A program made the position numbers and the translations under genes. DNA of 46,543 nucleotides from Limisphaerales bacterium (GTDB lineage Bacteria; Verrucomicrobiota; Verrucomicrobiia; Limisphaerales; BOG-1460). How positions within the stretch are numbered: position 1 is the stretch's first letter; every line of letters starts with the position of its first letter. The stretch covers positions 1 through 46,543 of the forward strand of contig PLQC01000154.1 of the NCBI GenBank assembly GCA_003159675.1. The letters run 5' to 3'. This document shows, piece after piece, positions 2,685-16,980 of this stretch. The notes under the pieces were generated by a model. That model was not told the DNA's origin. It worked only from the letters and a program-made list of their open reading frames with translations, and searched no databases.

Positions 2685-3960
2685 TCAGGGGGACCCAGCC
2701 TCCGGATTCTGTTTAGAGGGAGGGGATGCAATCTGGGCGCGCAGCTTTTGCAGTTCGGCCAGAAGTTTCTCCTGTTCTCCTGCGGATAAGGTTGCGCCCT
2801 TCGTTTCAGACGCTGCCGGCGCGACAAGTTTAGCGAGCTCTGCGCTGATGTAAGCTGCGTCGTTCCCGCCGAAAACCTCGGTGTAGGTGTTCAGGATCAG
2901 TTTGCCGCCGTCGTTATGCCCCTGCCACTTGGCAATGAGCTTGATGTCAATCTTCGCCTGCCAGAGCCGCCGGATGAGATAGGCCCGGATGCTCCGTTGC
3001 GAAAAGGCCGGGTAGCCCCAGGCGCGAGCAGGCATTCTGTAACGCTTTCCGAGCGTCCTGGATGCTGAAAAGCGGGGCATCGGTGGCCGGTGGGACAGTG
3101 TGTTTTGAACGGAGCCTCTGCAGGAACGGTTGCAGGTCTGGATAGATCGGGGGGAAGAAAAGCTCCTTGGTCTTGCGACGCCGGACGCAAAGCTCCCCTT
3201 TTTCCCAATTCACATCCCCCCACTTGAGGGAGCTGACCTCGGCCTGTCCGAGACCTGCCAGCCCCATGAATTCGATGAAGTCCGCGCTCTCCTCGGCTTG
3301 GGCATTCCGCTTTTCCGCTCGAATGCTCTCAACGATGGCGTGGAACTGCTCGTCGGTCGGCACCAGTCGCTTCGGCTTCTCGGGGCGTTTCCAGCTCTTC
3401 TGGAGGCGGTAAAACGGGGATTCAGCGATGATGCGGTCGTTGACGGCCAAGTCAAAAAGCTGTTTAAGGAGCAAAGTCACACGGTCATAGGAGCTGTTCT
3501 TGAGGTTCGGCTCCTGCTTGGCGAGCCATTCGTCGATCATCGAGGGCCGGATGCGTGAGACCTGAATGTCGGTGCCATGCGCCCAATCCTCCCGGAGCAT
3601 CTTGAGAATCCAGCGCTCGGTTTTTATGGTCTTCTCCGCCTTGCCCTGGCGGGTCTTCTCAAACCTTTCAATGAGCTGGGCGAGAGTGGTCTTCTCTGCC
3701 GCCGAATCCACCTTGTCAAGATTGCCAACCCAGGTCTTGAATCGGCGCTCCCCTATTTTGCGGTCGGTGGTGTCGAGGGAGTGGTCTTTCGACTTGCCAG
3801 CGATCTTTTTACTTCCATAGTAGATGCCGTTGATCGAATGACGATAGAGCCCTGGAAAATTTGGAATCTTTCCGAGCAACTGCCGCGTGCTGCGGCGGGG
3901 TGCTTGCCTCTCGTCGGCCACTCCCAAAATATAGGGGGAACAAGACTTTCGATTTTCCAC
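2685..3960 (-). pseudogene. tyrosine recombinase / integrase, frameshifted
   Basis: Two overlapping minus-strand frames together spell one phage-type integrase of about 420 residues. The first (3960 to about 3010) has the N-terminal SAM-like DNA-binding part and the start of the catalytic domain (FMGLAGLGQAEVSSLKWGDV). The second (about 3010 to 2685) has the C-terminal motifs: FSQRSIRAYLIR (second Arg box), WQGHNDGGK (Gly-His) and ILNTYTEVF (nucleophilic Tyr). The switch lies near 3005-3016, after SRLGLP. The usual first catalytic Arg (GLR-x-x-E) is GLGQAE here, which I recall as a verrucomicrobial variant but which may also mark decay. It lies 34 bp from tRNA-Val, the typical target of such enzymes. 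A sequencing error at the shift cannot be excluded. Confidence 0.82.
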
Positions 3961-3994: not shown

Positions 3995-4070
3995 GGGCGC
4001 TTGGCGCAGTGGTTAGCGCGTCTCGTTTACACCGAGTAGGTCGGGGGTTCGAGTCCCTCAGCGCCCACCA
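3995..4070 (+). tRNA. tRNA-Val (anticodon TAC), CCA encoded
   Basis: The acceptor stem GGGCGCT (3995-4001) pairs with AGCGCCC (4060-4066), followed by discriminator A and an encoded CCA. The D stem is GCGC/GCGC. The anticodon stem TCTCG/CGAGT (one mismatch at the outer pair) carries loop TTTACAC with anticodon TAC at 4028-4030. The T arm is GGGGG-TTCGAGT-CCCTC. All parts are intact, so the gene is probably functional. It lies between the broken integrase and the left end of the Mu-like element, 14 bp from the latter. Confidence 0.95.
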
Positions 4071-4084
4071 CTTTCATCCGTTGC

Positions 4085-4109
4085 TGAGTCTTGGCGGATA
4101 ATCTTAACG
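4085..4109 (+). repeat. left terminal inverted repeat of the Mu-like element
   Basis: TG at 4085-4086, ten variable bases, then GATAATCTTAACG at 4097-4109. The same spacing and the same 13 bases occur inverted at the right end. It is probably the outermost transposase-binding site (L1). It begins 14 bp after the CCA of tRNA-Val. Confidence 0.85.
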
Positions 4110-4448
4110 CTGATGGCGAAACAAGGCGAATCGGTCCTAATAATGCCGAATGTCAGGCACTTGCGCCTTGGAAACAGGCCAATTTTGGAGGGTGCAGTTT
4201 AACGCTGTTTTGAGGCATCACCAGTTTGATCGGCGAAGATGTCCGACCGCAAGTGGCTGCCATTTCAACATTGGACATGCAAAACCGTTAAGATTATCAA
4301 AACTCGCGGGAATGCGTGCGATTCACGCTTTTCGCCCTTTCGTGGCATGTTTTGGATACCCGGTTGAAGTTACCTACCTACTTTTTTGACCCGATTCGCT
4401 TGGCGAAATGACCCCTTTAAGCGCCCGTCGAAGACCGGTTAAGACCAC
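4110..4448. other. left-end non-coding region of the Mu-like element
   Basis: There is no convincing gene here. The stretch contains an inverted internal copy of the end core at 4286-4298 and weaker relatives: TTTAACGCTG at 4199-4208 resembles CTTAACGCTG just inside the left end, and GTTAAGACCAC near 4439-4449 resembles the inverted core. Mu and Tn7 ends also hold several transposase sites, so this is probably a transposition-end array. Confidence 0.5.
4286..4298 (-). repeat. internal copy of the transposase end core
   Basis: CGTTAAGATTATC is the exact reverse complement of the 13-bp core at the left end (4097-4109) and identical on the plus strand to the right-end core (16885-16897). It lies about 190 bp inside the left end in opposite orientation to the terminal site. 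It may be a second transposase site or an enhancer/operator-like site. Confidence 0.7.
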
Positions 4449-4481
4449 AAAAAAGCCGGCCAGTTTACAGCCTGGCCGGCT
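4449..4481 (-). terminator. Rho-independent terminator of the leftward operon
   Basis: A perfect 10-bp stem AGCCGGCCAG / CTGGCCGGCT with an 8-base loop is followed, on the minus strand, by a run of six T (4449-4454 as A on the plus strand). It lies 46 bp after the stop of the 102-residue protein and closes the leftward regulatory operon of the element. Confidence 0.9.
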
Positions 4482-4527
4482 CGGCTCATGTCTCGCGCTC
4501 ACCCGCGAGTCTCCTGAGCAAACCCGG

Positions 4528-4836
4528 TTAATTGTTCAGATGTTGTCCAGCCGGAGCGAGAATTTCTGCGAGGCTGATCGCTACGTGCCCCCCTTTCATA
4601 AATGCCTTCAGCCTCAGCCGGGCGACCGTCTTTTCCAATAGTCCGGCCGCGTCCAGCAGTTCTTCAGTGTCTAAGTCGAAAGCAGCCGTCTCGACTTCCG
4701 GGTCCTCACAGGTGGTATCGAACAGGTTCAAGGACGCTGTTCCATCCGCCCCTTTTTCCCCGCTGTGACTTTTAGGGACTTGTGCACCCTGCTTTTTCGA
4801 TGTATTTGAGTGATTGATCCGACGTTGGTTTTTCAT
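4528..4836 (-). CDS. hypothetical protein, 102 aa
   Basis: I do not recognise a family. The first 35 residues are polar and basic (KNQRRINHSNTSKKQGAQVP), the middle is acidic (TTCEDPEVETAAFDLDTEEL), and the last 40 form probable amphipathic helices (LLDAAGLLEKTVARLRLKAF). There is no signal peptide or membrane segment. It is the last gene before a strong terminator on the same strand and follows a 56-residue protein and the element's repressor, so it belongs to the regulatory operon. Its acidic/basic composition and small size would suit a DNA-mimic or accessory regulator, but that is only a guess. Confidence 0.6.
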   Translation of the reverse strand: MKNQRRINHSNTSKKQGAQVPKSHSGEKGADGTASLNLFDTTCEDPEVETAAFDLDTEELLDAAGLLEKTVARLRLKAFMKGGHVAISLAEILAPAGQHLNN

Positions 4837-4901
4837 GTGTATCGTGATTTCCTTTGTTGGGTCGCTTTGCCCTGGTCGCGCTTCTACGCGACTGGGGTCT
4901 T

Positions 4902-5072
4902 TCAGGCGGCGGCGCGCCGCATGATCTCATTTTCGAGCACGCCTTGGATGAATTCAAATGCCGTGCATCCAACCTCCGAAGCCAGGCGCCGCAGCGTCTG
5001 GACGGTTTTGGGGGAGAGTTCAACACCGCAGGTGACTTCGGGGCTGGGGTACTTCCCCTCCGTGCAAAGCAT
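4902..5072 (-). CDS. small protein, 56 aa, possible ribbon-helix-helix or antitoxin-like
   Basis: The frame from ATG 5072 to TGA 4902 encodes 56 residues. The core KTVQTLRRLASEVGCTAFEF followed by IQGVLENEIMRR looks like two helices after a short strand (EVTCGVELS), the layout of ribbon-helix-helix DNA-binding proteins. A stop codon lies just upstream in frame, so ATG 5072 is the only good start. It lies 65 bp upstream of the 102-residue gene, in the same operon. The fold assignment is tentative. Confidence 0.5.
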   Translation of the reverse strand: MLCTEGKYPSPEVTCGVELSPKTVQTLRRLASEVGCTAFEFIQGVLENEIMRRAAA

Positions 5073-5081
5073 AATTGTCTT

Positions 5082-5220
5082 TCATTCGGGTCTTTGTGCC
5101 TCGGTCGCGTTCTCGCGCGTCCGGGGCGTTTTGTTTTTCATTGTTGACGCCCGTCAGCTCGACCCAGTGAAGCATTTGAAGCGTCGTTTCACCGCCTGGC
5201 GACAGGCCCGGCGGTGTTTT
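5082..5220 (-). pseudogene. remnant of a second double-HTH regulator (C-terminal end)
   Basis: In one minus-strand frame just after the stop of the Asp/Gly-rich gene the sequence reads GGETTLQMLHWVELTGVNN and continues to a stop at 5082. This resembles the C-terminus of the element's repressor, SGETALRLARWVELQGRKS. There is no start codon, so it looks like the tail of a paralogous regulator left by duplication or recombination. The match is short and could be partly chance. Confidence 0.4.
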
Positions 5221-5511
5221 TCAGCCGTCGCCGCCGCCACTGCAGTAACCAAGGCCGCTGCCATCCCCACTGCCTTCGCCGGCGCCCTCCGAGCTGCCGT
5301 CCCCCGTCCCGTCGCCGGCCCCATTAGCTCCATCTCCGACCCCAGAACCATAGGAGTCTCCGTAAAGGTAACCTGACCCGTCCCCAAACCCCGCCCCCAG
5401 GGCATCTGCGTACGAGTCCCCGTCTCCCGTGCCGTCGGAAAAAGCCGAGCCCGCGCCCCTGCCGTCTAAAGTCACCACGCTCGCCTCCACTTCCGGGTTA
5501 AGGGATTTCAT
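5221..5511 (-). CDS. Asp/Gly/Ser-rich low-complexity protein, 96 aa
   Basis: After about 20 ordinary residues (MKSLNPEVEASVVTLDGRG) the protein is almost only G, D, S, A, with occasional Y and E: GYLYGDSYGSGVGDGANGAG and similar runs to the end. The repeat is roughly two residues long (GD/GS/GA). Its ATG overlaps the TGA of the repressor gene (ATGA at 5508-5511), which indicates translational coupling. The composition resembles calcium-binding RTX-like or disordered condensate-forming tails, but there is no GGxGxDxUx repeat, signal peptide or membrane segment. The role is unknown. GC-rich simple sequence can give chance frames; the coupling and the native-looking N-terminus argue for a real gene. 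Confidence 0.55.
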   Translation of the reverse strand: MKSLNPEVEASVVTLDGRGAGSAFSDGTGDGDSYADALGAGFGDGSGYLYGDSYGSGVGDGANGAGDGTGDGSSEGAGEGSGDGSGLGYCSGGGDG

Positions 5512-6365
5512 TTGGATTTCCGCCCCTGCAGCTCAACCCAGCGAGCCAAACGGAGCGCGGTTTCGCCAGACGGCATGTATTTGCCGGCCAGCCATTCACT
5601 GACCCGAGGTTGCGGAACGCCCAAGTCTGCAGCAAGCCGGGCCTTCATCCCGCGCGCACTGACCAAAAGGCGCACATCGGCCAGGACTTTCTGCAGCGTG
5701 ATCTTGCGCATCTCGGATTTCATATCGGCAGAACTCATACGGACTTCAGAACTATCTGTCAACAGTTCTTTTGCATCCTCGGAACTTCCGCTGTCCACCT
5801 TGGATGCATCAACAAACTCGCGTATTTTTCTTCGCTGGCTCATGTCCCGCTTCATCGCTCGAAGAAGCTGATCTATGGCTTTTTCCTCACGAAGAACCTG
5901 GGCGCGGTTCTTCGCAGTATGCTTGAGGCCTGCGAGTCTTTCTGTAGCTGCCGAAAGCGCCCCCCGCAGCTCCACCCATTGATCCCGTGCGTCCGCAACG
6001 AGCTTGTTGAAATCTTCACCGAGGGTTTCCTCAAACCACGCGCCGAACGGAAATGGACCGGGAGACACTTTGTTAAGCAGGCCAGCGACAGCAGAATCGC
6101 CATGATATTTCGGAGAGCCCACCCCTCTTGCAAGCCACAGGGGACTAACGTTGAGCATGAGGCAAAAGCGCAGAGCCACATCCGCCTTCAATGGCACCCG
6201 CGCCGCCTCAATGTTCGCGACTTGATTTCGGGTTATGCCCAAGCGCAGGCCCAGGCCCGCTTGTTCGAATCCCTCAAAACGTCGAATTGCTGCCAGGCGC
6301 CGGCAAATTTCCCTTTCGCCGGCGGGCAGCGGTTTGAACCGCGAAGATCCCAACTCGCTCTGCAC
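5508..6365 (-). CDS. element repressor-like protein with two XRE helix-turn-helix domains
   Basis: This 285-residue protein has an N-terminal XRE domain at about 22-75 (RFEGFEQAGLGLRLGITRNQ then ANIEAARVPLKADVALRFCL) and a second HTH at about 240-278 (KARLAADLGVPQPRVSEWLA then SGETALRLARWVEL). A charged helical linker joins them (about 115-210). It is divergent from the rightward operon, with about 80 bp between starts, the position of the repressor in transposable phages. It probably binds the intergenic region and holds capsid and transposition genes silent. Two DNA-binding domains in one chain could bridge two operators. Confidence 0.75.
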   Translation of the reverse strand: MQSELGSSRFKPLPAGEREICRRLAAIRRFEGFEQAGLGLRLGITRNQVANIEAARVPLKADVALRFCLMLNVSPLWLARGVGSPKYHGDSAVAGLLNKVSPGPFPFGAWFEETLGEDFNKLVADARDQWVELRGALSAATERLAGLKHTAKNRAQVLREEKAIDQLLRAMKRDMSQRRKIREFVDASKVDSGSSEDAKELLTDSSEVRMSSADMKSEMRKITLQKVLADVRLLVSARGMKARLAADLGVPQPRVSEWLAGKYMPSGETALRLARWVELQGRKSK

Positions 6366-6444
6366 GGTGAATTCTAAACAGACGCCGGGGCAAAAATAAA
6401 GCTTGCAGCGTAAATCATGGCGTGTTACAGAATGGATAGCTGTT

Positions 6445-7110
6445 ATGCCAGATTCGAAGCCAGTAATCGAAAAATCAAGGCGCGGTCGCCCGACGCGGTT
6501 CCCACAAATAGTCGCGGACGCTAGGGATCTGGCCGTGTCACGTCAGACCCTTTGGAATTTACTTTCCGGCCGGCAAAAGAACCCCAAACTGGCCTCACGC
6601 TATTTCGCCCTCAAGGCCGCACAGGAGGGCGCAAAGGACGGCGCGCACAATACGGTGGCAGCCGGCCGTGACGCAAGACAGAGGGTGTTCTGCGAAAACC
6701 AAAAGTCCGTTTTCAGGAAAGAACGCACGGCCGACCTCGCCGCGATCCAAAACCACCTGGAGGAATATCAGGCAATTTTGGAAAAGCTCGGTTTACAAAT
6801 CCTTGTGTTGCGATTCGACGGCGACGCCGCAAGTCCCGTCTGGAAAGAGCCGGCCCTGGGAGAAAGTCTCGGCGCTGAACTTGACGCCTGCGGCGCGGGA
6901 AGTTTCGACAGTTCGCACCTTGCGTTTGGCTCGTTTTTTTGCTACTTCCACGTGGCCCACCTTGCTAAAAGCCTCGGCGCGCTGAAGAATTCGCTTCAAT
7001 CGCGTGGCTTACTGGACAACGTCCGAATTTTTCACATAGAAATCGAATCAGGCTGGCGCGAATATTTTCCGGCCACCGGGCAGATCTTTTCCCCGGCCGA
7101 TTCAGACTAA
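6445..7110 (+). CDS. putative HTH DNA-binding protein, first gene of rightward operon
   Basis: The N-terminal part contains RRGRPTRFPQIVADARDLAV then SRQTLWNLLSGRQKNPKLAS, an XRE/Cro-like helix-turn-helix. The remaining 150 residues have no family I recognise; a helical stretch (AAIQNHLEEYQAILEKLGL) precedes a mixed alpha/beta region. An upstream TTG at 6403 is also in frame; I prefer ATG 6445 because GGA lies about ten bases before it. Being the first gene opposite the repressor, it is a candidate early regulator analogous in position to Ner of Mu. Confidence 0.6.
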   Translation: MPDSKPVIEKSRRGRPTRFPQIVADARDLAVSRQTLWNLLSGRQKNPKLASRYFALKAAQEGAKDGAHNTVAAGRDARQRVFCENQKSVFRKERTADLAAIQNHLEEYQAILEKLGLQILVLRFDGDAASPVWKEPALGESLGAELDACGAGSFDSSHLAFGSFFCYFHVAHLAKSLGALKNSLQSRGLLDNVRIFHIEIESGWREYFPATGQIFSPADSD

Positions 7111-7115
7111 GATTC

Positions 7116-7373
7116 ATGAGCACCTTCAATTTTGCCCAATCGCACAACCAGCCGCGAGCCCTCGTACGTGGGGACGGGTTCGCGGATTATGCCCCACAAC
7201 GCGCGCTTGAGCCCGTCCCCAGCAGCCCAACAAACCAGCTCCCGCAGGCCCATGGTCGCGCATCAGCCTCGGGAGACAATGATGCGCTCAAAAGGTTGCA
7301 GCTCAAAAACGCCCGGCGCTTTGCGCCTGGCGACACCAAACCGTTGCCTGAGCAGCGACAATTCCCCACATAA
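7116..7373 (+). CDS. hypothetical protein, 85 aa
   Basis: The frame begins 5 bases after the stop of the previous gene and ends 4 bases before the capsid start, filling the gap exactly. The protein is polar, rich in Pro, Arg, Ala and Gln (QPRALVRGDGFADYAPQRAL), with no membrane segment and no known family. Spacing is the main evidence; an alternative frame also runs open here as a 5' extension of the capsid gene. Confidence 0.4.
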   Translation: MSTFNFAQSHNQPRALVRGDGFADYAPQRALEPVPSSPTNQLPQAHGRASASGDNDALKRLQLKNARRFAPGDTKPLPEQRQFPT

Positions 7374-7377
7374 TCAA

Positions 7378-8829
7378 ATGAGATTTAAGTTTAAGTACCC
7401 GTCCCTATTGGCAACGCTGGGCAGCCTGGCGTTGGTTTTTGTTCTGTGCACACTCGGCCTTCTTTCGTTGCCGGGAGCCTTCCTGCTTCTGGCCGCCGCG
7501 CAACTGCTCGCCCTTTCCCAGCAGTCCCCTCGGCGTGGCCTTTGTCTCCTGGCTACACTCACCCAGGCTCAGGTTGAAGAGTTCGAAAATATCTGCGAGA
7601 GCCTACGGGTTCAGTTGACCGACTCAAAGGCCGACGCAACGGCCATGCGCAGGGAACTCGACGAAGTAAGAGGGAATCAGAGAAAGATGCAAAAAAACGT
7701 GGCCTTTGGCAGCGTTGGCCGCTCCGGCGTGGTTTGGATCGGAAACAAACCCTTTGTGACCGACGATTGCGCCACCGCGTTAACGAGCGTCTTTGTGCTC
7801 GAAACCGACCGGCTCGGCGATGGCGCGTTATCTAACCTGGTGAAGGATGCCAGTGCTCGCGAAGGGGTCCTAAATAAGGCAAAAACCTTCCTTGGACTGG
7901 AACAAAAGACTGCGATGACCACAACGCAAATCCCCGTCCCGACGATCTACGTGCCGCAGATCATCGAGCTGGTGTTTGCTTACGGCCAGGCCCGGCAATT
8001 CGCCACCGTGTTCCCGCTTGGAGCAGGGACCGTCAAACTGCCCATGTTGGCAGCCGGCGAAGACAACTTCGGCTACCTCGGTGCTGGAACGGCCGGCATG
8101 TCGCAGAGCGTACCGGAACGCCGGGTCACGGCAAATCTCGTCACATTTACTGCGAACAAAGCAGGTGGCATGATCAGAATACCTACGGAGCTCGAGGAAG
8201 ACACGTTCGTGCCGTTAGGTCAGTTCCTGGCGAGATACATCGCGCGCCAGCTCGCCCTCCTGGAGGACAAATCCATGTTCATGGCAGACGGAACGTCCAC
8301 CTACGCGAGTATCGTGGGCATCCAGAAGTACTGCCAGACGAACACCGCTTACCTCACGGTCCTGGGATCGACCAAGACCCATCCGAGTGACGCGGTTATC
8401 GCGGATTTCCGGTCCATCAGGCCCCTGGTGAACGCGGCGGTCCTCGCAAACATGAACATCGGCGGCAAGAGCGCCGCGGCATATTTCATGCATCCCTCGA
8501 TGGATGCGTTGCTGGTTACGTTCAACACCATCAACAATCCTCTCATCTACCAGCACCTGCCGGACGGCAGCGCGTCGCTTGACGGTTACCCGATCCACTG
8601 GATCGGTGTGAGCCAGGCCTTCTCGTCCGCTGCTGCTCCCAGCACGCCCCTGGCCTTCTTCGGAGACCTTTCCTACTGGTACCTCGGTGAGCGCGGTGCG
8701 CCGCGTGTCGAGGTGAGCAAGGAAGTGTTCTTCGCCACCGACGAACTCGCGATGCGCGCCCTTGAACGCATCGACGTCGAGGCAATGGCGGTTGACGCCA
8801 TGTCCACGCTGCAGACGGCTGCAGCCTAA
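7378..8829 (+). CDS. HK97-type phage major capsid protein with N-terminal hydrophobic segment
   Basis: From ATG 7378 the protein has 483 residues. Residues 8-46 are strongly hydrophobic (LLATLGSLALVFVLCTLGLL and LPGAFLLLAAAQLLAL), probably one or two membrane helices. Residues about 58-100 form a coiled coil (LTQAQVEEFENICESLRVQL) like the delta/scaffold domain of HK97 capsids. From about 180 on, the HK97 fold is clear: TIYVPQIIELVFAYGQARQF, ARYIARQLALLEDKSMFMAD, MHPSMDALL, FGDLSYWYLGERG and TDELAMRALERID near the end. The family forms icosahedral shells. A frame open upstream to 7132 would add 82 residues of atypical composition; I reject it. No portal or protease gene adjoins it. Confidence 0.88.
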   Translation: MRFKFKYPSLLATLGSLALVFVLCTLGLLSLPGAFLLLAAAQLLALSQQSPRRGLCLLATLTQAQVEEFENICESLRVQLTDSKADATAMRRELDEVRGNQRKMQKNVAFGSVGRSGVVWIGNKPFVTDDCATALTSVFVLETDRLGDGALSNLVKDASAREGVLNKAKTFLGLEQKTAMTTTQIPVPTIYVPQIIELVFAYGQARQFATVFPLGAGTVKLPMLAAGEDNFGYLGAGTAGMSQSVPERRVTANLVTFTANKAGGMIRIPTELEEDTFVPLGQFLARYIARQLALLEDKSMFMADGTSTYASIVGIQKYCQTNTAYLTVLGSTKTHPSDAVIADFRSIRPLVNAAVLANMNIGGKSAAAYFMHPSMDALLVTFNTINNPLIYQHLPDGSASLDGYPIHWIGVSQAFSSAAAPSTPLAFFGDLSYWYLGERGAPRVEVSKEVFFATDELAMRALERIDVEAMAVDAMSTLQTAAA

Positions 8830-8887
8830 AAGTTTCGGGAGCCTGGTTATTCCTCGCTCCCGATGTTTGAGTAATAGGTTCATATTG

Positions 8888-8923
8888 GGGGGGGCGCGGT
8901 TGGTTGCCGCGCTCCCTATTTTT
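8888..8923 (+). terminator. terminator after the capsid gene
   Basis: GGGGCGCGG (8891-8899), a 7-base loop and CCGCGCTCCC (8907-8916) form a GC stem, followed by TATTTTT (8917-8923). Another 8-bp stem TCGGGAGC / GCTCCCGA (8835-8863) lies just before it. Together they probably end or attenuate the capsid transcript and lower expression of the genes after it. Confidence 0.75.
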
Positions 8924-8928
8924 GAAAT

Positions 8929-9639
8929 ATGGGTCACGACCAAAATAATTTCGGCGACTCCAGCCAGAGCCGCACCGCAAGAGCAGGTGGGGCACCGTTG
9001 GGGAAGCCGGGCGCCAGGTTGCTAGACCCATTCCTGGCGCCTCATTTAAGGTGGCAAGCGGAACGTGCAAAAACTTTGCACAAGCTTTGTACGAGAATCG
9101 AAGCTCGCGTTGACGATGGGCAACCGCTGCTAAAAGCTGTTCGGCGGGCGACCCTACGCCGCAACGGCAAACCATATCACTGCGATCCACAACGCCGCTG
9201 GGCACTGAGCCCCACGACCCTCTATCGCCTGTGGTATTGCTGGCGTCGAGGCGGCGAGATTCCGTCAGCATTCAAGCTCCACTACGCAGGAGGCAGGAAG
9301 AAAACGCTGACACTGGCCGTCCTGAGCCGCTTCATAGAGTTCTGCTCCACGTTTCAATTTCACAGCCAGGCCAAGGCGTTCTCGGCGTTTGCAAAAGTTG
9401 AAGATAGGCACTGGCGCCACATGCGACCGGGGCGCCCATCGCTCGCGCATCGATTTTCCAATGTCCCGCGATACTTCACGGGATTGCAATTCAGAGCGCT
9501 GCAGGCGCAACTCAAAGCCATCGCTGCTCAGCAAAAGGAGCTTGGTCGCTTGCGGCTCCTTTTCTGCGCCGACCAGGCGCGCCGATTCCCGGCGCCGGCG
9601 GCGCGCCGGCGCCGAAACGGCCCCGGCTTCGACATATGA
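8929..9639 (+). CDS. hypothetical protein of the element, 236 aa, basic
   Basis: I do not recognise a named family. The centre reads RWALSPTTLYRLWYCWRRGG then EIPSAFKLHY, a helix-turn-helix-like stretch that I recall from proteins of similar verrucomicrobial elements. The C-terminus is very basic (PAARRRRNGPGF). No signal or membrane segment is present. The start ATG 8929 has a poor ribosome site and follows a terminator. Its stop overlaps the next start (ATGATAA at 9636-9642), so the two are coupled. It is probably DNA-binding; a role in transposition or regulation is a guess. Confidence 0.6.
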   Translation: MGHDQNNFGDSSQSRTARAGGAPLGKPGARLLDPFLAPHLRWQAERAKTLHKLCTRIEARVDDGQPLLKAVRRATLRRNGKPYHCDPQRRWALSPTTLYRLWYCWRRGGEIPSAFKLHYAGGRKKTLTLAVLSRFIEFCSTFQFHSQAKAFSAFAKVEDRHWRHMRPGRPSLAHRFSNVPRYFTGLQFRALQAQLKAIAAQQKELGRLRLLFCADQARRFPAPAARRRRNGPGFDI

Positions 9640-10280
9640 TAACCAGCCTACCTGAGCGAACAGGAAAACGGACCTTGCCAGTCAGCGACCGGACGATCCT
9701 GGTGTCCGTAGAATCCGTGAGGATATCATGGGGCGTTGAAGCCGAGGTAGTGCTGGCTTGGGCAGATGCCGGGATGCTGCAGTGGGTGTTCGATGTATCC
9801 AGCGCTCGGTTCCCCGCGAACAAGGACCACAATCGTGCGCTCAGATTTTGGGGCCCGGAAGTCATCGATCCACACTCTGTTGCGAAGCTCAACCTTGCGC
9901 AGGTAATTGCTTCAATCCTGCCGCCATCACGTAATTGGTTTCGTGGTGGCGAGGTAATGAGGATATTGCTCATAAGTCGGCCCCATGTGGCGGCCGTGCG
10001 CTTCGAATGCCGCGGCGTCATCGAGAAACACAGCACCCAGATCGGGCGCGATGACCTGGCTTCGTATCTTCGCCGGCGCTGGATCGGGGGCGGCGTCCCT
10101 GAAAGGGCCACTTCGCGCCAGGACGCCCCAGGACGCACTTTACCCTACAAGGCTATCCACACCCCCACCGCTGTCAAAGACCTCTCCACCGGTCCTTTAA
10201 TTCTCATTAACGGTATCGTGGCGCAGGATCAAACCCCGGTGCCCCAGAAAACCGGAAACCCAAAAACCGCCCTATCATGA
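9636..10280 (+). CDS. hypothetical protein of the element, 214 aa
   Basis: No family recognised. The chain is mixed alpha/beta: VSVESVRISWGVEAEVVLAW, FPANKDHNRALRFWGPEVID, LAQVIASILPPSRNWFRGGE, then AAVRFECRGVIEKHS. The C-terminal 60 residues are Pro/Thr-rich and probably flexible. Its ATG overlaps the stop of the preceding gene and its stop overlaps the next ATG (ATGA at 10277-10280), so it is in a tightly coupled set with the beta-rich protein and the baseplate-hub-like protein. The position between capsid and tail-like genes suggests a structural or assembly protein. Confidence 0.65.
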   Translation: MITSLPERTGKRTLPVSDRTILVSVESVRISWGVEAEVVLAWADAGMLQWVFDVSSARFPANKDHNRALRFWGPEVIDPHSVAKLNLAQVIASILPPSRNWFRGGEVMRILLISRPHVAAVRFECRGVIEKHSTQIGRDDLASYLRRRWIGGGVPERATSRQDAPGRTLPYKAIHTPTAVKDLSTGPLILINGIVAQDQTPVPQKTGNPKTALS

Positions 10281-10726
10281 GCGAAGACCGGCAATTCAAG
10301 ATTCAGATCTCCGCTGACGCAAGCTCACTTGTCTTTGAGTTTCCCGGCGCTTCGACGAGTCAGGCGGCAACAACGGGCGACTTCCGCTCTCATCAAACCG
10401 GCAACTGGAGCGCCACCGTCACCTGGGAATACTATAATGGCTCGGCGTGGGTCACACCCGCTCCGAGCGCACCCGCGGGCACTGGCACCATCACCATTCA
10501 AAGCGGACATGCTGTGACTGTGGATGGGGCCGTGAACATCTCCGGCACCCTTGTGAACTCGGGAAGCATTACCCCGGCCAGCATCCTGACCTTCACCTCG
10601 GGCGGACAATACCAGCATAACTTCACCACAACGGCGGCGCTGGATCGGAGTAGGGAATTACTGATAGGACTATTTAGCCCACAAATGCCAGCACGCGCAA
10701 AGTCACCGCGCGGAACACCTGAGTAA
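10277..10726 (+). CDS. beta-rich surface or fibre-like protein, probably truncated
   Basis: Residues about 35-120 have the strand-turn pattern of G8-like/right-handed beta-helix proteins: GNWSATVTWEYYNGSAWVTP, GTGTITIQSGHAVTVDGAVN, SGTLVNSGSITPASILTFTS, GGQYQHNFTTT. In relatives I remember, the chain continues for hundreds of residues after YQH. Here it ends about 30 residues later in an atypical basic tail (LDRSRELLIGLFSPQMPARA), while another frame just before the stop reads NASTRKVTARNT and then stops. An internal deletion or frameshift near 10635-10690 is likely. Translationally coupled to the gene before it. Confidence 0.55.
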   Translation: MSEDRQFKIQISADASSLVFEFPGASTSQAATTGDFRSHQTGNWSATVTWEYYNGSAWVTPAPSAPAGTGTITIQSGHAVTVDGAVNISGTLVNSGSITPASILTFTSGGQYQHNFTTTAALDRSRELLIGLFSPQMPARAKSPRGTPE

Positions 10727-10728
10727 TT

Positions 10729-12831
10729 ATGGCCACAAACATCTGGACACTCGCTTGCGCCGGTATCGAGAAATCCTTCGCCGATTGGGGCTTCGATCAG
10801 GATTCAGCCGACGGCATGTTCAGCAACATGCTGGTGGACGTCCTTTCGCTGTGCGTGCCCGGAGCGACCGTTCAGAGCGATCCAATCTTCGCTTTCGAGG
10901 CGCAGGTGATCGTCAGGCGCGGGCGCACTGGCAGCGGCACTTCCTACACCGGCGGGGCCATTGAGTTTCAAGGAAAACGGCTCCTCCACGTCCTGGACGG
11001 CCGGCCGGAATTCGAGGGCATTGTCTATCAGTTCGGCGGCCCATGGTATGACCTGGACCAGACTCCTTATTTGCAGGACGTCAAGGTGTATGGCGGGGAC
11101 CCGGACGCTCTCCTGGATCTGTGGCAGAGTGAGGTGATTCTGTTCTTCGACCGATCCTCGACGTGGGCGAGTTACATCAACATGACCAATGGTCAGCAAA
11201 TCACAGCCAGCCTGAACAGTCTCCTGACGCAATATGCGGCGCAGGGCCTGCCGGCGCCTTTCCAGATCGGCGAGATCGATCCCGCCGTCGCTCTTCCCAC
11301 TTACCAGGTGAAGGACATCAAATGTTCCGAGGCCATCATCCACTGCATGAGGTCCTCGCCGGACTGCAAGGTGTGGTTTGATTATACGACCACGCCGCCG
11401 ACGTTCAACGCAACGAAGCAGGGGAACTGCGTTGCGGTCTCTGTCGCCATCGGGGCCGGCACTTCCCTGGAGAGCATCAAGCTCACCCCGCGTTACGATC
11501 TACAGCCCAGCAGCGTGACACTCTTTTTCCAGCAGACCAATTCCATCAGCGGTCAAAACTGGCTCAGCACAGTGGTGCAGCAGGCCAACTCTTCCGGTTC
11601 GACCACCACTGAAAACGTCCCCACTCATCCTGCAGGCGGCCTTCGCGGAGTCGTGCAAACGATCGACATGCAGGGCATCACGGGCACGGTCGCAACCGGA
11701 GCGCTTGTTTGCGTGACGGTGGCCAATACTGTCGCATTCTGGTCCCGGTTCCTGCCGCAATGGGGCAGCCCGCGCATTCGCATTCCAGATCTAGAGCCGG
11801 GACCCAACCCTGGCGCTACGGTTGGCTTCAAAATCCTCGATGTCATGAGCGCCGTGCTTGACGACAATTCCGGCACCGTGGTGGACCTTAGCCTCTATAC
11901 CAAGGTGCTCACGGATGGGTCTTTTGCGCCCTGGATGACCCTCACGAGCGGGACGCCCGTCATTGCAGTCCGGGCGCTGGTCAAGACCCGCATTTCTTAT
12001 GATCAATCGGATGCGGACACCGGTGGACGCCTTCTTAAGCGGCAACCGTCGCAAGAGATCATGATTCGCGTCACACTCACCAGCGGCGTGACGGGCAACT
12101 ATTCGTCCTACCTGTCCGCCTTCCCCGCTGAACCCATTCCAACCGGCCTGGCGACCAACCTGTACAATGCCATGGCCACGTTGCAATACCAGGGCACCGT
12201 CAGCATCATCGAGCAAGAATGTTCCGGCAGCCTCGGCATGGGCGATGTGCTCAACCTCACCGGCGGCCGCACCGAATGGGCCACGATGAAGGCGATGATC
12301 CAGCAGGTGCACAAACTCTATGGCAAGGGCCGGACCGAAGTCACCATCGGCCCGGCCGCTCACTTGAGCGCCGCCGATCTCACCCAAATATTCCTGGTGA
12401 ACCGCTACCGCCGCAACTGGAACAATCCACTGGTCCAGTCCACAGCCCAAAACACGGCGGGCAACAACCTGGTCCTGGGCCAAAATGCCCCGAAAGAGAA
12501 TTCGACCCAGGGCCTGGGTGAACCCAGCCAGACCACCACGTCCTTCGATAACGGCGACGGCACGAGAACGATCATCCGCAAAGACGCGCAGAATCAGCAG
12601 ATCACTTTGTTCGTCGTTGACGCGAGCGGAGCTCTCGTCACATCGAAACCCAGTTTCAGCATGGCAACGGGCGACATCCCGGCGCCACCAGGGGACGGCA
12701 CCGCGCTGGCGATGAAAGCGCGCGAATATCCAATCTGCGTTATGGTCGGAAGCCCCCCCACTCCCACCACGCAATACGTCATGCTGATGGGCACGACGAC
12801 ATACCCGACCTCGGGGAATCCCTACGCATGA
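10729..12831 (+). CDS. phage tail / baseplate-hub-like structural protein, 700 aa
   Basis: The long beta-rich protein resembles phage tail-hub proteins (gpD/gp44-like) in layout: an N-terminal strand-rich part (WQSEVILFFDRSST around 130), a block with SLESIKLTPRYDLQPSSVTL near 250, GATVGFKILDVMSAVLDDNS near 370, and an Asn/Thr/Gly-rich C-terminal 150 residues. I cannot name an exact family. It starts 2 bases after the previous stop and its TGA overlaps the ATG of the transposase (12828-12831), linking structural and transposition genes in one transcript. No sheath, tube or tape-measure gene accompanies it. Confidence 0.6.
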   Translation: MATNIWTLACAGIEKSFADWGFDQDSADGMFSNMLVDVLSLCVPGATVQSDPIFAFEAQVIVRRGRTGSGTSYTGGAIEFQGKRLLHVLDGRPEFEGIVYQFGGPWYDLDQTPYLQDVKVYGGDPDALLDLWQSEVILFFDRSSTWASYINMTNGQQITASLNSLLTQYAAQGLPAPFQIGEIDPAVALPTYQVKDIKCSEAIIHCMRSSPDCKVWFDYTTTPPTFNATKQGNCVAVSVAIGAGTSLESIKLTPRYDLQPSSVTLFFQQTNSISGQNWLSTVVQQANSSGSTTTENVPTHPAGGLRGVVQTIDMQGITGTVATGALVCVTVANTVAFWSRFLPQWGSPRIRIPDLEPGPNPGATVGFKILDVMSAVLDDNSGTVVDLSLYTKVLTDGSFAPWMTLTSGTPVIAVRALVKTRISYDQSDADTGGRLLKRQPSQEIMIRVTLTSGVTGNYSSYLSAFPAEPIPTGLATNLYNAMATLQYQGTVSIIEQECSGSLGMGDVLNLTGGRTEWATMKAMIQQVHKLYGKGRTEVTIGPAAHLSAADLTQIFLVNRYRRNWNNPLVQSTAQNTAGNNLVLGQNAPKENSTQGLGEPSQTTTSFDNGDGTRTIIRKDAQNQQITLFVVDASGALVTSKPSFSMATGDIPAPPGDGTALAMKAREYPICVMVGSPPTPTTQYVMLMGTTTYPTSGNPYA

Positions 12832-15224
12832 ACCAAAACCTTTACACGACTTCGCAGATTGCCCGCACGCTTGGGATGAACCGCAGGGCGGTCCGGCGCG
12901 TGCTCGCCAATGTCCCGGCCGCCGGGAAGGTGATAGTCTCCGGATCTCCGGCCAATGCATGGACCGTCTGCGCCCTGCCGGCATCCCTGCAGGAATTGCT
13001 TGCAGCGGAAGCCAAGCGGCTCGGCTATCAGTCCGCAGAGCAACTCTTGCGCGCGCCCGCTAAACGCTGGGAATCCGCCGTCCCGTTTTCGGAAGTCGCG
13101 CAGCACTGCCTGGACAAGGCTGCAAAGCTGCAGCGCGCGCTGGCGCGAGTCTTGAGCCTTCGAAACGATCTCACGATCTCACCCGCCGAACGTGAACGGA
13201 TCGGGCTTGCCGATTACCAGACGGAATTTGGGCACGCTGTGAGCGCGCGTTACCTGCGTGAATTAGTCAAGCGCACCCTGGATCGGGACGGGGGCGCCGG
13301 CGAGCTTGGGAGACTTGATATTTACCTGGATGACAACCTGGCGCGCAAACACGCGGCCGGCCGCGGCGTTCCACTTTCGGCGAATTCGGATTTTCGAGAG
13401 CTGCAGGACGTGGTTGCCAGCTTCACGAATCCCGCCGCACCAACTCCAGGAGAAAAGCAATACCTCTGGCTGCGAGCTTTCGATCTGCGCGAAGAGCTGA
13501 CCGCAGCCGGCAGGAAGCCGAAAAAGGTCCACAACTCCCTGCTCAAGTTTTTGTGGCGTTGCGCGCCATTCCTTGCGGCCAGTCCCGACGCGCTGCGCCA
13601 GGCTTTCAATTGGAAGCACGCCCGATGGATCGCGAACGATCAAAACGCCGCCTCTCTGGTGGACGGCCGCAAAGACCACTCCGGGTTTCACCGCGCGCCG
13701 GAATTCACGGCAGCCGACCGCGATGCGCTCATTGCGCACGCGGTTCTGAACTGCGACGGCCGGGTTAGCCAGGCCTGGCGCGAACTGAGCGAGCGCGGCG
13801 CGCTCAGCGAAGCGTTGCTTGGCCACTATCTGAGCAACCCGGCTTCCAAGAGCCATTGCCCCGCGCGCATCCGCGACGCGGTCAAATATGAAGTAGCGAT
13901 GATGGAAGACATCCACCACGGCCCGCGCCAGGACAAACTGAACGGCGCGCACTTGAGCCGCGATTGGAGCAACGTTGCCTCGATGGACTGGCTTTGCGCC
14001 GACGATGCAACCCTGGAAGTATATTTCTACGCGCCGGACGGCAAGGGCTGGTTCACACTGATGCGCGGGCAATTCCTGGTGATGATCGACGTGCGCTCGC
14101 TGCGCGTGCTCGGCTTCGCTCTGCAGCCGGAACGGAACTACAACGCGCACACGATCAGGACTCTCATCACCCGCGTGTGCGATGAACACGGGTTGCCTCG
14201 GAAAGGTTTCTACTTTGAGCGCGGCATTTGGAAAAACTCACGCCTGCTCAAAGGCGACCCGCAGGCAGACCCGCTGTCGTTTGGCGAAACCGAGCTTGGC
14301 CTGCGCTCGCTTGGATTGCGGTTTGTTCACTCAAAGCTCCCGCGCTCCAAGCCCGTCGAGCGCGTCATCGGCGCCATCCAGGATTTGTGCGAGGGCGAGC
14401 CTGGCTATGTGGGACCGGATGAAATGCATGAGACGTTCGAGCGCGTGAAAAAGGCGAAGCTGCAGGTTGACGCGCGCAAGGTGCATCCCTCAGACCATTT
14501 TTACAGTCTCGACGAATGGGTGGCGCGCTTGGAGGAAGTTTGCGACCTCTACAACTCCACCGTGCAAAACGGCAAGATGACGTGCGACCTGTCCCCCGAA
14601 GCCGCCTTCGCGAAATTCACCCGCACCGCCGACCCGGTTATCAAATTGCCAGCGAGCTGCCGTTATCTGCTCGCGCACCACAAGCGCCCACTGAAAGTCA
14701 CCAGCAACGGCATCACGCTCCGCTTCGGCAAGCAGGTTTTCAACTATCGCAACGAAGAGACCGGGCGCCTGCGCGAACAGACCGTGCTCGCCTGGTTCAA
14801 TCCCGACATGCCGGAAATCCTCACTGTTACCGATATGAACCGCGAAAACGCCTTTTGCGTCGAACGCTCGCAGGACGTGCCGGCCATGGATGCGCCGGAG
14901 GAATTGCTGGGCCAGGAAATGGCGCGAATCGAAGCGCATCAATCTTACGCGCGCGTCCGCTATCGGATGCTCAAGTCGAAATTCGCAACACCGTTCCGGC
15001 GCGTTATCGCGGACGCGGCAACTGCCGAACTTGGGGCACGGATCGAGGCCGAACAGTCGCGCGTCAGCGCTGAGCGCAGCAGTCAACAGAGGCAGCAGAC
15101 AAAAGCGCGGAAGATTTCCAGCCGGCTTGGGATGATCGTTGGCGGCGGCAGGCCGCTCCGGCCTGATCAGGTGGAAGACGGCGAGTGGTTGAATTCATTC
15201 CTGAACAAAAAGGTCAAGCCATGA
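12828..15224 (+). CDS. MuA-like DDE transposase
   Basis: The 798-residue protein begins with a helix-turn-helix (TTSQIARTLGMNRRAVRRVL, residues 7-26) like the MuA/Tn7 end-binding domains. The catalytic rve/RNase-H core starts near 385: WLCADDATLEVYFY gives Asp392/393, then a strand LVMIDVRSLRVLGFAL; FYFERGIWKN places Glu464 where MuA has the second Asp; KPVERVIGAIQDL supplies Glu511. A MuA-type beta-barrel and a basic C-terminal helix (residues 730-798) follow; in MuA that tail contacts MuB. It is followed by a MuB-like ATPase with ATGA overlap. It should bind the GATAATCTTAACG end sites and join strand ends to target DNA. Position at the far right, after capsid genes, differs from Mu. Confidence 0.88.
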   Translation: MNQNLYTTSQIARTLGMNRRAVRRVLANVPAAGKVIVSGSPANAWTVCALPASLQELLAAEAKRLGYQSAEQLLRAPAKRWESAVPFSEVAQHCLDKAAKLQRALARVLSLRNDLTISPAERERIGLADYQTEFGHAVSARYLRELVKRTLDRDGGAGELGRLDIYLDDNLARKHAAGRGVPLSANSDFRELQDVVASFTNPAAPTPGEKQYLWLRAFDLREELTAAGRKPKKVHNSLLKFLWRCAPFLAASPDALRQAFNWKHARWIANDQNAASLVDGRKDHSGFHRAPEFTAADRDALIAHAVLNCDGRVSQAWRELSERGALSEALLGHYLSNPASKSHCPARIRDAVKYEVAMMEDIHHGPRQDKLNGAHLSRDWSNVASMDWLCADDATLEVYFYAPDGKGWFTLMRGQFLVMIDVRSLRVLGFALQPERNYNAHTIRTLITRVCDEHGLPRKGFYFERGIWKNSRLLKGDPQADPLSFGETELGLRSLGLRFVHSKLPRSKPVERVIGAIQDLCEGEPGYVGPDEMHETFERVKKAKLQVDARKVHPSDHFYSLDEWVARLEEVCDLYNSTVQNGKMTCDLSPEAAFAKFTRTADPVIKLPASCRYLLAHHKRPLKVTSNGITLRFGKQVFNYRNEETGRLREQTVLAWFNPDMPEILTVTDMNRENAFCVERSQDVPAMDAPEELLGQEMARIEAHQSYARVRYRMLKSKFATPFRRVIADAATAELGARIEAEQSRVSAERSSQQRQQTKARKISSRLGMIVGGGRPLRPDQVEDGEWLNSFLNKKVKP

Positions 15225-16786
15225 GCAATACCCGTATCGCGGAGTCCGGTCAGCCGTTGCGCCAAGAGCGCTGGTGTTCGAGCGAAGAGATTGAACAGGG
15301 TTTGCTGGCGAATATCGTGGCCCGGCGTTGCTCCGTACTGGACACCCCCAAAGAGCGTGAATTGATTTGGGCGCTTCAACATTTCAGTCACCAGCCTGGC
15401 GGCCTGCGGCGGGTTGCAAGTGACCTGGTCGCGATGTTCCCCGGCAGGCTCGGCACCAAATCAATGCAGCGATTCGGAATGAAGCCGGGCCGGGTCTATA
15501 ACGTCAATCAAATCAAGTTGATTCGCAAGGAACTCGGACCGGATGAACCGAGTTTGCCCTTGCGCGGTGATGTAGCCTTTGACTTTTCCGAGTTCGCGGG
15601 CAGCCGCGACACGGCGGATGATCGCCCGACTTCCTATAGGCTTGAAGACTTTTGGAATGGGGAAAAAATCACCACGGAAACGCTGCCGGGTTTTCTGGAA
15701 GAGCTTTGCCTGAACCCAGCTCTACCCGTCGCAGATTGTCATCCTTGGTTTTTCCAGGATTTGATCGCGTCTCTTTGGGAGTATCTCGACAGCCGGGCGG
15801 GGAGTCTCCATAGAACCGCCGTTGTCACGGAGATTGGGACGATCATCTATGACTCCCTGGATTACGTGGCGCAGTCCAAATGCCTTGTGCTCATCGAAGG
15901 CGCTGCCCGCACGGGCAAAACTTTTGCAGCGAAGCAGTATGTTGCTGAGCGGCCTGGCCGCGCGCGTTACGTCCAAGTCCCCTCGACAAATGACGATATT
16001 GGCTTCTTCAGGGCAATCGCGAAAGCCCTTGGGGTTTCCTGCGGCCGCTCCTGGAAAGCGGTCCAATTGCGCCAGCGAATCGAGGACGTGTTGCAGACCG
16101 GCGACTTGATCCTGGTGATGGACGAGGCCCATTTTTGCTTTCCCGTCAGTGATTGCCGGCACAGTCTGCCCGGCCGGGTCAATTGGGTGCTCACAGCGTT
16201 GGTGAACCAGGGCGTCGGAGTCGCTTTCTTTTCCACCCCGCAGTTCACCGCGTCGCAAGAGGCCGTCAAAAAACGAACGCATTGGGCCTCCGAGCAACTG
16301 ATTGGCCGCATCACTCATTACGAGCGTTTGCCGGAGATCTTGCCTAAGAAAGACTTGGCCAAGGTGGCAAGATCGCTCTTGCCTGAGGGAGACTCGGATT
16401 CAATCCAGGCGCTGGCGAAGTACGCGAACACCTCGGCAAAATATCTGGCCGGGATCGAATCAGCGGTCAGGCGGGCCAGATACCTTGCCCAGAAGGACGG
16501 CCGGGAAAAGGTTACGGCATCGGATATTCAGTGCGCGATCAGGCAGGGTGTCATCCCATCGGACACCGCCCTGGCGCAAGCTTTGGCTGAGGCCCAGGCC
16601 AAAGGGCGCGGGAAGCGGTTTAAGGGCGCGTTAACTGCCCCTCAAAGCCCGATTTCAGCCACCGAGGAAAGCGACGCGCCGGCAGCCAGCGAACCAATTT
16701 GTTCAGACCGAAATAAGCGTGGCATCCTGGATATTCGGAGCCTACTCCGTGCCCCCCAGGCCGAGCCTGAGCCAGTGACGACCTGA
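15221..16786 (+). CDS. MuB/TnsC-like AAA+ ATPase, transposition target selector
   Basis: The start at ATG 15221 overlaps the transposase stop; a frame open from 15185 is less likely. The 521-residue protein has an N-terminal helical region of about 200 residues, then an AAA+ module: Walker A GAARTGKT (227-234), Walker B LILVMDEAHF (Asp301-Glu302), and an arginine-rich sensor region (QLIGRITHYERLPEIL). A C-terminal lid helix bundle follows (AKYANTSAKYLAGIESAVRR). In Mu and Tn7 such ATPases coat DNA, choose the target and activate the transposase. The last 70 residues are polar and probably flexible. It is the last gene before the right end. Confidence 0.87.
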   Translation: MSNTRIAESGQPLRQERWCSSEEIEQGLLANIVARRCSVLDTPKERELIWALQHFSHQPGGLRRVASDLVAMFPGRLGTKSMQRFGMKPGRVYNVNQIKLIRKELGPDEPSLPLRGDVAFDFSEFAGSRDTADDRPTSYRLEDFWNGEKITTETLPGFLEELCLNPALPVADCHPWFFQDLIASLWEYLDSRAGSLHRTAVVTEIGTIIYDSLDYVAQSKCLVLIEGAARTGKTFAAKQYVAERPGRARYVQVPSTNDDIGFFRAIAKALGVSCGRSWKAVQLRQRIEDVLQTGDLILVMDEAHFCFPVSDCRHSLPGRVNWVLTALVNQGVGVAFFSTPQFTASQEAVKKRTHWASEQLIGRITHYERLPEILPKKDLAKVARSLLPEGDSDSIQALAKYANTSAKYLAGIESAVRRARYLAQKDGREKVTASDIQCAIRQGVIPSDTALAQALAEAQAKGRGKRFKGALTAPQSPISATEESDAPAASEPICSDRNKRGILDIRSLLRAPQAEPEPVTT

Positions 16787-16884
16787 CCGAAAAGCGAGCG
16801 AGTTTCGCGCACACCCGCCAAAAGGGTGCGCGATGTTTCTGTACAGGCGCTACAGGCACTTTGGAACTCGGAACTCCTTAAAAA
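16787..16884. other. right-end non-coding region of the Mu-like element
   Basis: No gene. It holds the stem CGCGCACACCC / GGGTGCGCG (16806-16832, two-base bulge), which may act as the operon terminator though no T run follows, and a tandem TACAGGCGC / TACAGGCAC at 16842-16859. Only one clear end core follows, at 16885. Confidence 0.5.
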
Positions 16885-16909
16885 CGTTAAGATTATCGGC
16901 GCGTTTACA
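16885..16909 (-). repeat. right terminal inverted repeat of the Mu-like element
   Basis: CGTTAAGATTATC (16885-16897) followed by 12 bases ending in CA at 16908-16909. Read inward on the minus strand it is TG-N10-GATAATCTTAACG, the same form and spacing as the left end. It is the probable R1 site and transposon terminus. Confidence 0.85.
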
Positions 16910-16980
16910 TTGCCAGTGATCTCGAGGAGATACATGGAGCCGGTCGTCGTCCGCGTGGCTCCGAAAAAATGAATGCGCAT
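16910..16980 (-). pseudogene. 5' fragment of MBL-fold metallo-hydrolase / RNA exonuclease gene
   Basis: From ATG 16980 the minus strand reads MRIHFFGATRTTTGSMYLLE, then ITGN, a close match to the conserved start of MBL-fold proteins of the CPSF/RNase J-like group (xHFxGAxxTVTGSxYLLE). The frame runs into the right end of the Mu-like element after 23-24 codons. The remaining 400 or so residues, with the HxHxDH metal site, are not at the other side of the element: the left flank is tRNA-Val. The gene is therefore dead, and insertion was accompanied or preceded by a rearrangement. Confidence 0.72.

Follow-up and report, generated by a model that had tools for sequence, protein, structure and literature searches.

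Mu-type transposases are the textbook case of near-random insertion, and the target duplication left by bacteriophage Mu is 5 bp. To our knowledge, targeted insertion in the Mu-type superfamily has so far been tied to TniQ/TnsD proteins or to CRISPR guides. Among CAST I-B2/I-D systems, homing to tRNA genes is the work of TnsD, and one of them, CyCAST, inserts 30-33 nt downstream of tRNA-Leu (PMC10293859); V-K CASTs carry tRNA spacers (PMC11406308). Judged by analogy of behaviour, these two groups, the first with its tRNA-homing TnsD, appear to be the closest described systems to the elements reported here, of which no published account was found in a literature search restricted to open-licence papers.

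The window (the whole stretch of 46,543 nucleotides analyzed, contig PLQC01000154.1 of a Limisphaerales bacterium) contains an element of 12,825 bp at 4085-16909, interpreted as a DNA transposon of the Mu/Tn7 superfamily that would depend on the transposase TnpA and the ATPase TnpB under the control of a phage-type repressor (Table 1). Very probably it is one of a family of elements for which tRNA genes, and now and then tmRNA, are the homing target, with insertion 14 bp past the CCA. This reading rests on the ends, the genes, the fixed distance at many tRNAs in either orientation, the 4-bp duplications and the uninterrupted sites of one member, all taken from sequence; no transposition was observed. 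The insertion site, repeated in relatives, is the more important point, over the borders themselves.

Table 1. Features of the window element and its immediate flanks.
Feature	Coordinates	Strand	Remarks
tRNA-Val (tac), encoded CCA, target gene	3995..4070	+	ARAGORN; Rfam RF00005
14-bp spacer, CCA to element	4071..4084	+	Equal length in relatives
Candidate 4-bp target duplication TTGC, left copy	4081..4084	.	Other members have 4-bp duplications; may be coincidental here
Left end: TGAGTCTTGGCG + core copy L1 (4097-4109)	4085..4109	+	
Degenerate second site L2 (AGTTTAACGCTG), about 95-100 bp inside L1	4196..4207	+	L2 of relatives at about +103
Third core site L3, inverted	4286..4298	-	Inverted L3 of relatives about 190-230 bp inside L1
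Small ORF	4528..4836	-	Weak excisionase-like match only, E 0.012, below cut-off
Phage-type repressor	5508..6365	-	HTH_3; phrog_4; divergent from other genes; conserved in family
Unknown ORF	6403..7110	+	Short homologue at same place in L151; small regulator inferred
HK97-fold major capsid protein	7132..8829	+	PF05065 E 4.6e-27; phrog_10
Accessory protein	8929..9639	+	Conserved in 9 family members
Unknown ORF	9636..10280	+	Weak relatives in L151 and L029
Unknown ORF	10277..10726	+	Very weak tail-tip-like match, E 0.047
700-aa protein	10729..12831	+	Tail-like by appearance only; relative precedes TnpA in L167, E 4.4e-49
TnpA, MuA/TnsB-type transposase	12828..15224	+	Apparent triad D393, E464, E511
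TnpB, MuB/TnsC-type AAA+ ATPase	15185..16786	+	About 190-aa N-terminal extension
Right end: core copy R1 (16885-16897) + terminal CA, TGTAAACGCGCC read inward	16885..16909	-	
TTGC, right copy	16910..16913	.	
About 24 first codons of MBL-fold (CPSF73-like) gene, flank not element	16910..16980	-	Cut exactly at element

Borders and end architecture

The initial annotation had described a 13-bp core occurring three times, at the left end, inverted at the right end and once more inverted at 4286. A search for GATAATCTTAACG returned exact copies at the same three positions (L1, R1 and L3 in Table 1) and no others in the window, even with 2 mismatches allowed; no other exact copy was found in the rest of the genome. 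Shuffled sequences contained 0.35 +/- 0.58 copies and none of 100 shuffles reached three, and the core is the only 13-mer with at least three copies in the window, a low-complexity CCGCCG word aside. A fourth, degenerate copy constitutes L2; neither this site nor the adjoining tRNA figured in the initial annotation. The dinucleotides TG (4085-4086) and CA (16908-16909) each lie 12 bases outside the nearest core copy, in agreement with the distance that had been proposed for both termini.

This spacing had also been taken to pinpoint the element to the base. The borders stand, on independent evidence; equal TG spacing alone is weak evidence and could not have fixed the exact base. An MBL-fold gene is found intact in related genomes of the same order; its protein starts MRIHFFGATRTTTGSMYLLEINGK, and the reading in the window runs to ...LLEITG, ending exactly where the element starts, homology stopping at 16910. 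As far as this comparison can tell, the right border is fixed within a base or so and the motif is not needed for it. The end of MBL homology, the 14-bp distance to the tRNA, the flanking TTGC copies and the same end pattern in relatives together support 4085 and 16909 as the true ends. In relatives the pattern recurs with TGAG at the left, TGTA at the right and two copies of the core, the outer one direct and the inner one inverted.

The rest of the MBL-fold gene was not found in the assembly, so that the right flank has probably been rearranged, for example by an adjacent deletion. Since this flank is a gene stump, the agreement of the two TTGC copies in the window could be coincidence, the odds of which are 1 in 256 for any specified four bases. 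An empty site for the window element itself was looked for and not found.

Relatives share the plan of the ends, with differing core sequences. Their left end has a terminal site, often with a second direct site about 103 bp inside (L2 in L069, L070, L071 and L073), and an inverted L3 further in, at about 190-230 bp except in L027, where it is nearer; their right end has one site. From this arrangement, which relatives repeat, the copy at 4286 is classed as L3, an inner transposase-type site. The left end starts TGAG or TGAA and the right end TGTA in several members; in L155, TT replaces TG at both ends. Both L155 ends (L155:4936 and 18809) begin TTTAAAG, with 26 identical terminal bases. The core is inferred to be the binding site of the element's own transposase. 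With three sites at the left (L1, L2 and inverted L3) and one at the right, the layout is the one generally seen at Mu/TnsB-type ends.

Insertion at a fixed distance from tRNA and tmRNA genes

Exactly 14 bp separate the CCA of a tRNA-Val gene from the left end of the window element. The 3' ends of tRNAs were first noticed beside three left ends, after which ARAGORN was run on all loci and the distances measured; a further set of full-length members was fetched and examined once the tRNA rule had been stated. Fourteen loci, all from Verrucomicrobiota and the window included, have an end exactly 14 bp past the 3' end of a tRNA or, in one case, a tmRNA. The genes are tRNA-Val (window, L027, L029, L150/L087, L163), tRNA-Leu (L069, L070 with CTT in place of CCA, L092, L158), tRNA-Gly (L076, L160), tRNA-Arg (L154, L155) and the tmRNA gene of L165 (L165:7995-8345). 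Both ends were mapped in eight of the fourteen (window, L027, L076, L154, L155, L158, L160, L163). Only one was identified in the remaining six (L029, L069, L070, L092, L150, L165), partly by a TG search, which is biased towards a fit. Either end can face the tRNA, the right one doing so in L160 and L092. The chance that one end falls at the exact tRNA distance is of the order of 1 in 100,000, an estimate of our own that assumes roughly 50 tRNA genes in about 4 Mb.

Seven further members are near misses at 10-16 bp (L067 and L023 at 15, L152 at 13, L079 at about 13-15, L071 and L033 at 16, L090 at 10-12), and nine have no tRNA or tmRNA in the flank examined (L073, L077, L082, L084, L089, L159, L161, L162, L167). 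A search for other structured RNAs beside tRNA-less members found only the tmRNA of L165. Either the tRNA habit is not universal or these nine members sit at other sites. At 18 distant Mu-type transposase loci there was no tRNA at the corresponding place. In the TnpA tree, every uncut member of the broad group that includes the window element (13 in all) adjoins a tRNA; support for this group is only moderate (81/93), and tRNA adjacency occurs outside it too. Close sisters are found at different tRNAs (L154/L155, L069/L070, L090/L150), and therefore the target is tRNA genes in general.

Duplications of 4 bp flank the window element (TTGC), L027 (CGTT), L079 (ATTT), L154 (TCTA), L155 (TTGC), L158 (CCGT) and L160 (GGGT). 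That of L076 is 5 bp (CTAAC), that of L163 at most 3, and L152, L067, L073 and L090 lack one. Uninterrupted sites are available for one member only, L154: two sibling genomes (G832 and G363) carry at the same tRNA-Arg the CCA, 14 bp and TTTCCGT, and at this site L154 reads CCA, 14 bp, element, TCTA and TTTCCGT. The point of strand transfer would be fixed, 14 bp beyond the CCA, and the stagger between the strands would in most cases be 4 bp.

On the outer side of the window's tRNA-Val lies an adjoining ORF (2947-3960, minus strand) with weak tyrosine-recombinase likeness, a 31% relative of which is found beside the tRNA-Arg target of the L079 element.

Transposase and ATPase

No Pfam transposase match was obtained for TnpA. 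Its AlphaFold model (mean pLDDT 72.7) found the Mu transpososome 4fcy as best Foldseek match (E 9e-14), with TnsB and IstA next, and hhalign aligned TnpA with MuA over the catalytic core with a probability of 97. On the strength of these matches, TnpA meets what is expected of a divergent RNase H-fold DDE transposase of the MuA/TnsB kind. The whole-TnpA profile was unusable for scanning the collection, there being no conserved stretch, and the narrower profile A3 was used.

Residues D393 and E511 align to catalytic positions 1 and 3. At position 2, where MuA has Asp, the close relatives and many of the distant ones align with Glu (E464 in the window protein, motif E-x-G); a set of distant Mu-type hits keeps DNG there. 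The aligned triad thus appears acidic but non-canonical, and a working D-E-E site is an inference, catalysis being untested. TnpB matches phrog_296 (E 5.7e-16), has TnsC and MuB as best fold matches, and qualifies as a MuB/TnsC-type AAA+ partner.

Gene content and virion cargo

From left to right, the window element carries the repressor gene (minus strand), an unknown ORF, the capsid gene, the accessory protein gene, two unknown ORFs, the 700-aa protein gene, TnpA and TnpB. The true start of the capsid gene is probably nearer 7378. The capsid is at most 59% identical to those of tailed-phage contigs in IMG/VR. Such contigs were considered as family members and set aside; their annotation shows no TnpA or TnpB, so they are, to the extent that they were read, ordinary tailed-phage contigs. 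The L025 relative of the 8929-9639 protein matches the N-terminal region of the Mu-type transposase family phrog_310. For the 700-aa protein there were no family matches, and no viral relative was found.

Virion genes between the repressor and TnpA differ from member to member. Capsid genes are present in the window, L023, L033, L084, L090, L150, L152 and L154, portal genes in L073, L158 and L010 (a near-identical viral-contig copy of L090), and tape-measure-like genes in L027, L077, L079, L151 and L158. A protease is encoded in L067 and L161; for L090 and L150 it is inferred from where the gene lies and how long it is. L071 has a 765-aa phage protein of unknown function. None of the members examined has a full phage gene set. 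Upstream of the portal gene, L090:4291-4947 and L150:8217-8858 match the phage 'DNA repair protein' family phrog_10276. L033 contains two capsid genes and a broken TnpA.

Several family members with different virion genes coexist in genomes G077 (L027, L033, L034), G849 (L152, L161), G729 and G813. A 'segmented phage', in which several elements of one genome such as G077 or G849 share out the virion genes, was considered. The virion genes are interpreted here as cargo, which might help the elements to spread in phage particles or to interfere with phages, neither of which has been shown. Portal, protease and capsid form an own set of HK97 head genes in L090 and L150. In this respect such members resemble the cf-PICIs, capsid-carrying phage satellites that are likewise small elements with HK97 head genes of their own; unlike the present family with its DDE transposase, cf-PICIs use an integrase.

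Discussion

Repressor, A/B-type proteins and virion genes occurring together would also be expected of a remnant of a full-size Mu-like transposable prophage in which deletion kept the ends, the repressor, A, B and a few structural genes, the tRNA being incidental; the variation of virion genes between members is what random deletions would leave. Bacteriophage Mu is indeed alike in transposase fold, overall plan, MuB-like ATPase, TG/CA termini, a divergent repressor (c in Mu) near the left end and several transposase-type sites at that end. However, no full-size version was found: IMG/VR yielded a single relative, of 6.6 kb, and a search of 50,697 phage records gave no match. All members with both ends mapped measure 8.5-15.5 kb, and the virion genes mostly look full-length. 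TnpA-TnpB lie at the far (right) end, and not next to the repressor as in Mu, and the exact 14-bp tRNA spacing recurs. The family further departs from Mu in its size (about 9-15 kb, with only few virion genes), its homing to tRNA genes, the Glu at the second catalytic position and the length of the ATPase (312 aa in MuB, about 530 aa in TnpB with its N-terminal extension). Neither the complete head, tail, packaging and lysis modules of a Mu-like phage (only a capsid and a possible tail protein within 12.8 kb) nor its 5-bp duplication and near-random targets (here mostly 4 bp, and tRNA/tmRNA + 14 bp) are met, and we regard this origin as unlikely.

Still less probable is a Tn7-like element homing by TniQ/TnsD or a CRISPR-type guide, although known Tn7-like elements use tRNA genes in just this way, as CAST I-B2/I-D and V-K do (PMC10293859; PMC11406308). 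CyCAST shares the TnsB/TnsC-type core and fixed-distance insertion downstream of tRNA genes, and the type V-K ShCAST shares the TnsB/TnsC fold matches and tRNA genes as attachment sites. The selector of a Tn7-like element is missing, with no TniQ/TnsD match in the scanned ORFs of the window element and the 8.8-kb L163 element (small unscanned ORFs and remote folds are not excluded). So are the Cas effector and guide array of a CAST: no Cas match was obtained in the scanned ORFs and no array-like repeats were seen. TnsA and Cas12k were likewise not found. The longest stretch that an element shares with its own tRNA measures 8-12 nt, and other elements match that tRNA at least as well, which leaves an element-encoded guide or homing spacer to the tRNA unsupported. 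Moreover, insertion is at 14 bp and not 30-33 nt, the duplication is 4 bp and not 5, several tRNAs and a tmRNA are used, and the elements have a phage repressor and virion genes. An ordinary integrase-type island at the tRNA 3' end, placed by ORF 2947-3960, can be given almost no credence. A weak Phage_integrase match does adjoin the tRNA, as does a relative of the ORF in L079, but insertion falls outside the tRNA and at a constant distance from it, the ends are transposase-type with short target duplications, and the tRNA end is not copied on the far side.

For the preferred reading, a transposon family homing to tRNA genes, the T-arm/acceptor half of the gene is inferred to be what is recognised; it is the likely signal because tmRNA shares only that half with tRNA. 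As neither a TniQ/TnsD nor a guide RNA was found, recognition is provisionally assigned to TnpB, with its long N-terminus, or to some other protein of the element. The TnpB extension is the first candidate reader, yet only as a guess because tRNA-less members have it too; between TnpB and TnpA, the 8929-9639 protein or a host factor, nothing in evidence favours one. We read the targeting route as matching no known system, with the mode of homing unexplained. The fuller proposal can be advanced only tentatively and may well fail: MuA/MuB-type machinery alone, without TniQ/TnsD or guide, would read the T-arm/acceptor half and strike 14 bp downstream, the elements would be transposon-based capsid satellites spreading sets of virion genes, and the active site would be D-E-E.

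A family that homes to many different tRNA genes, with nothing apparent for the task beyond MuA/MuB-type proteins, would represent a novel way of inserting at safe sites and might yield a compact tool for insertion at sites common to every bacterium. The conserved Glu at catalytic position 2 raises the question of whether a D-E-E active site functions, and the portal, protease, capsid or tape-measure genes carried by member after member raise that of a capsid-based parasitism between transposons and phages.
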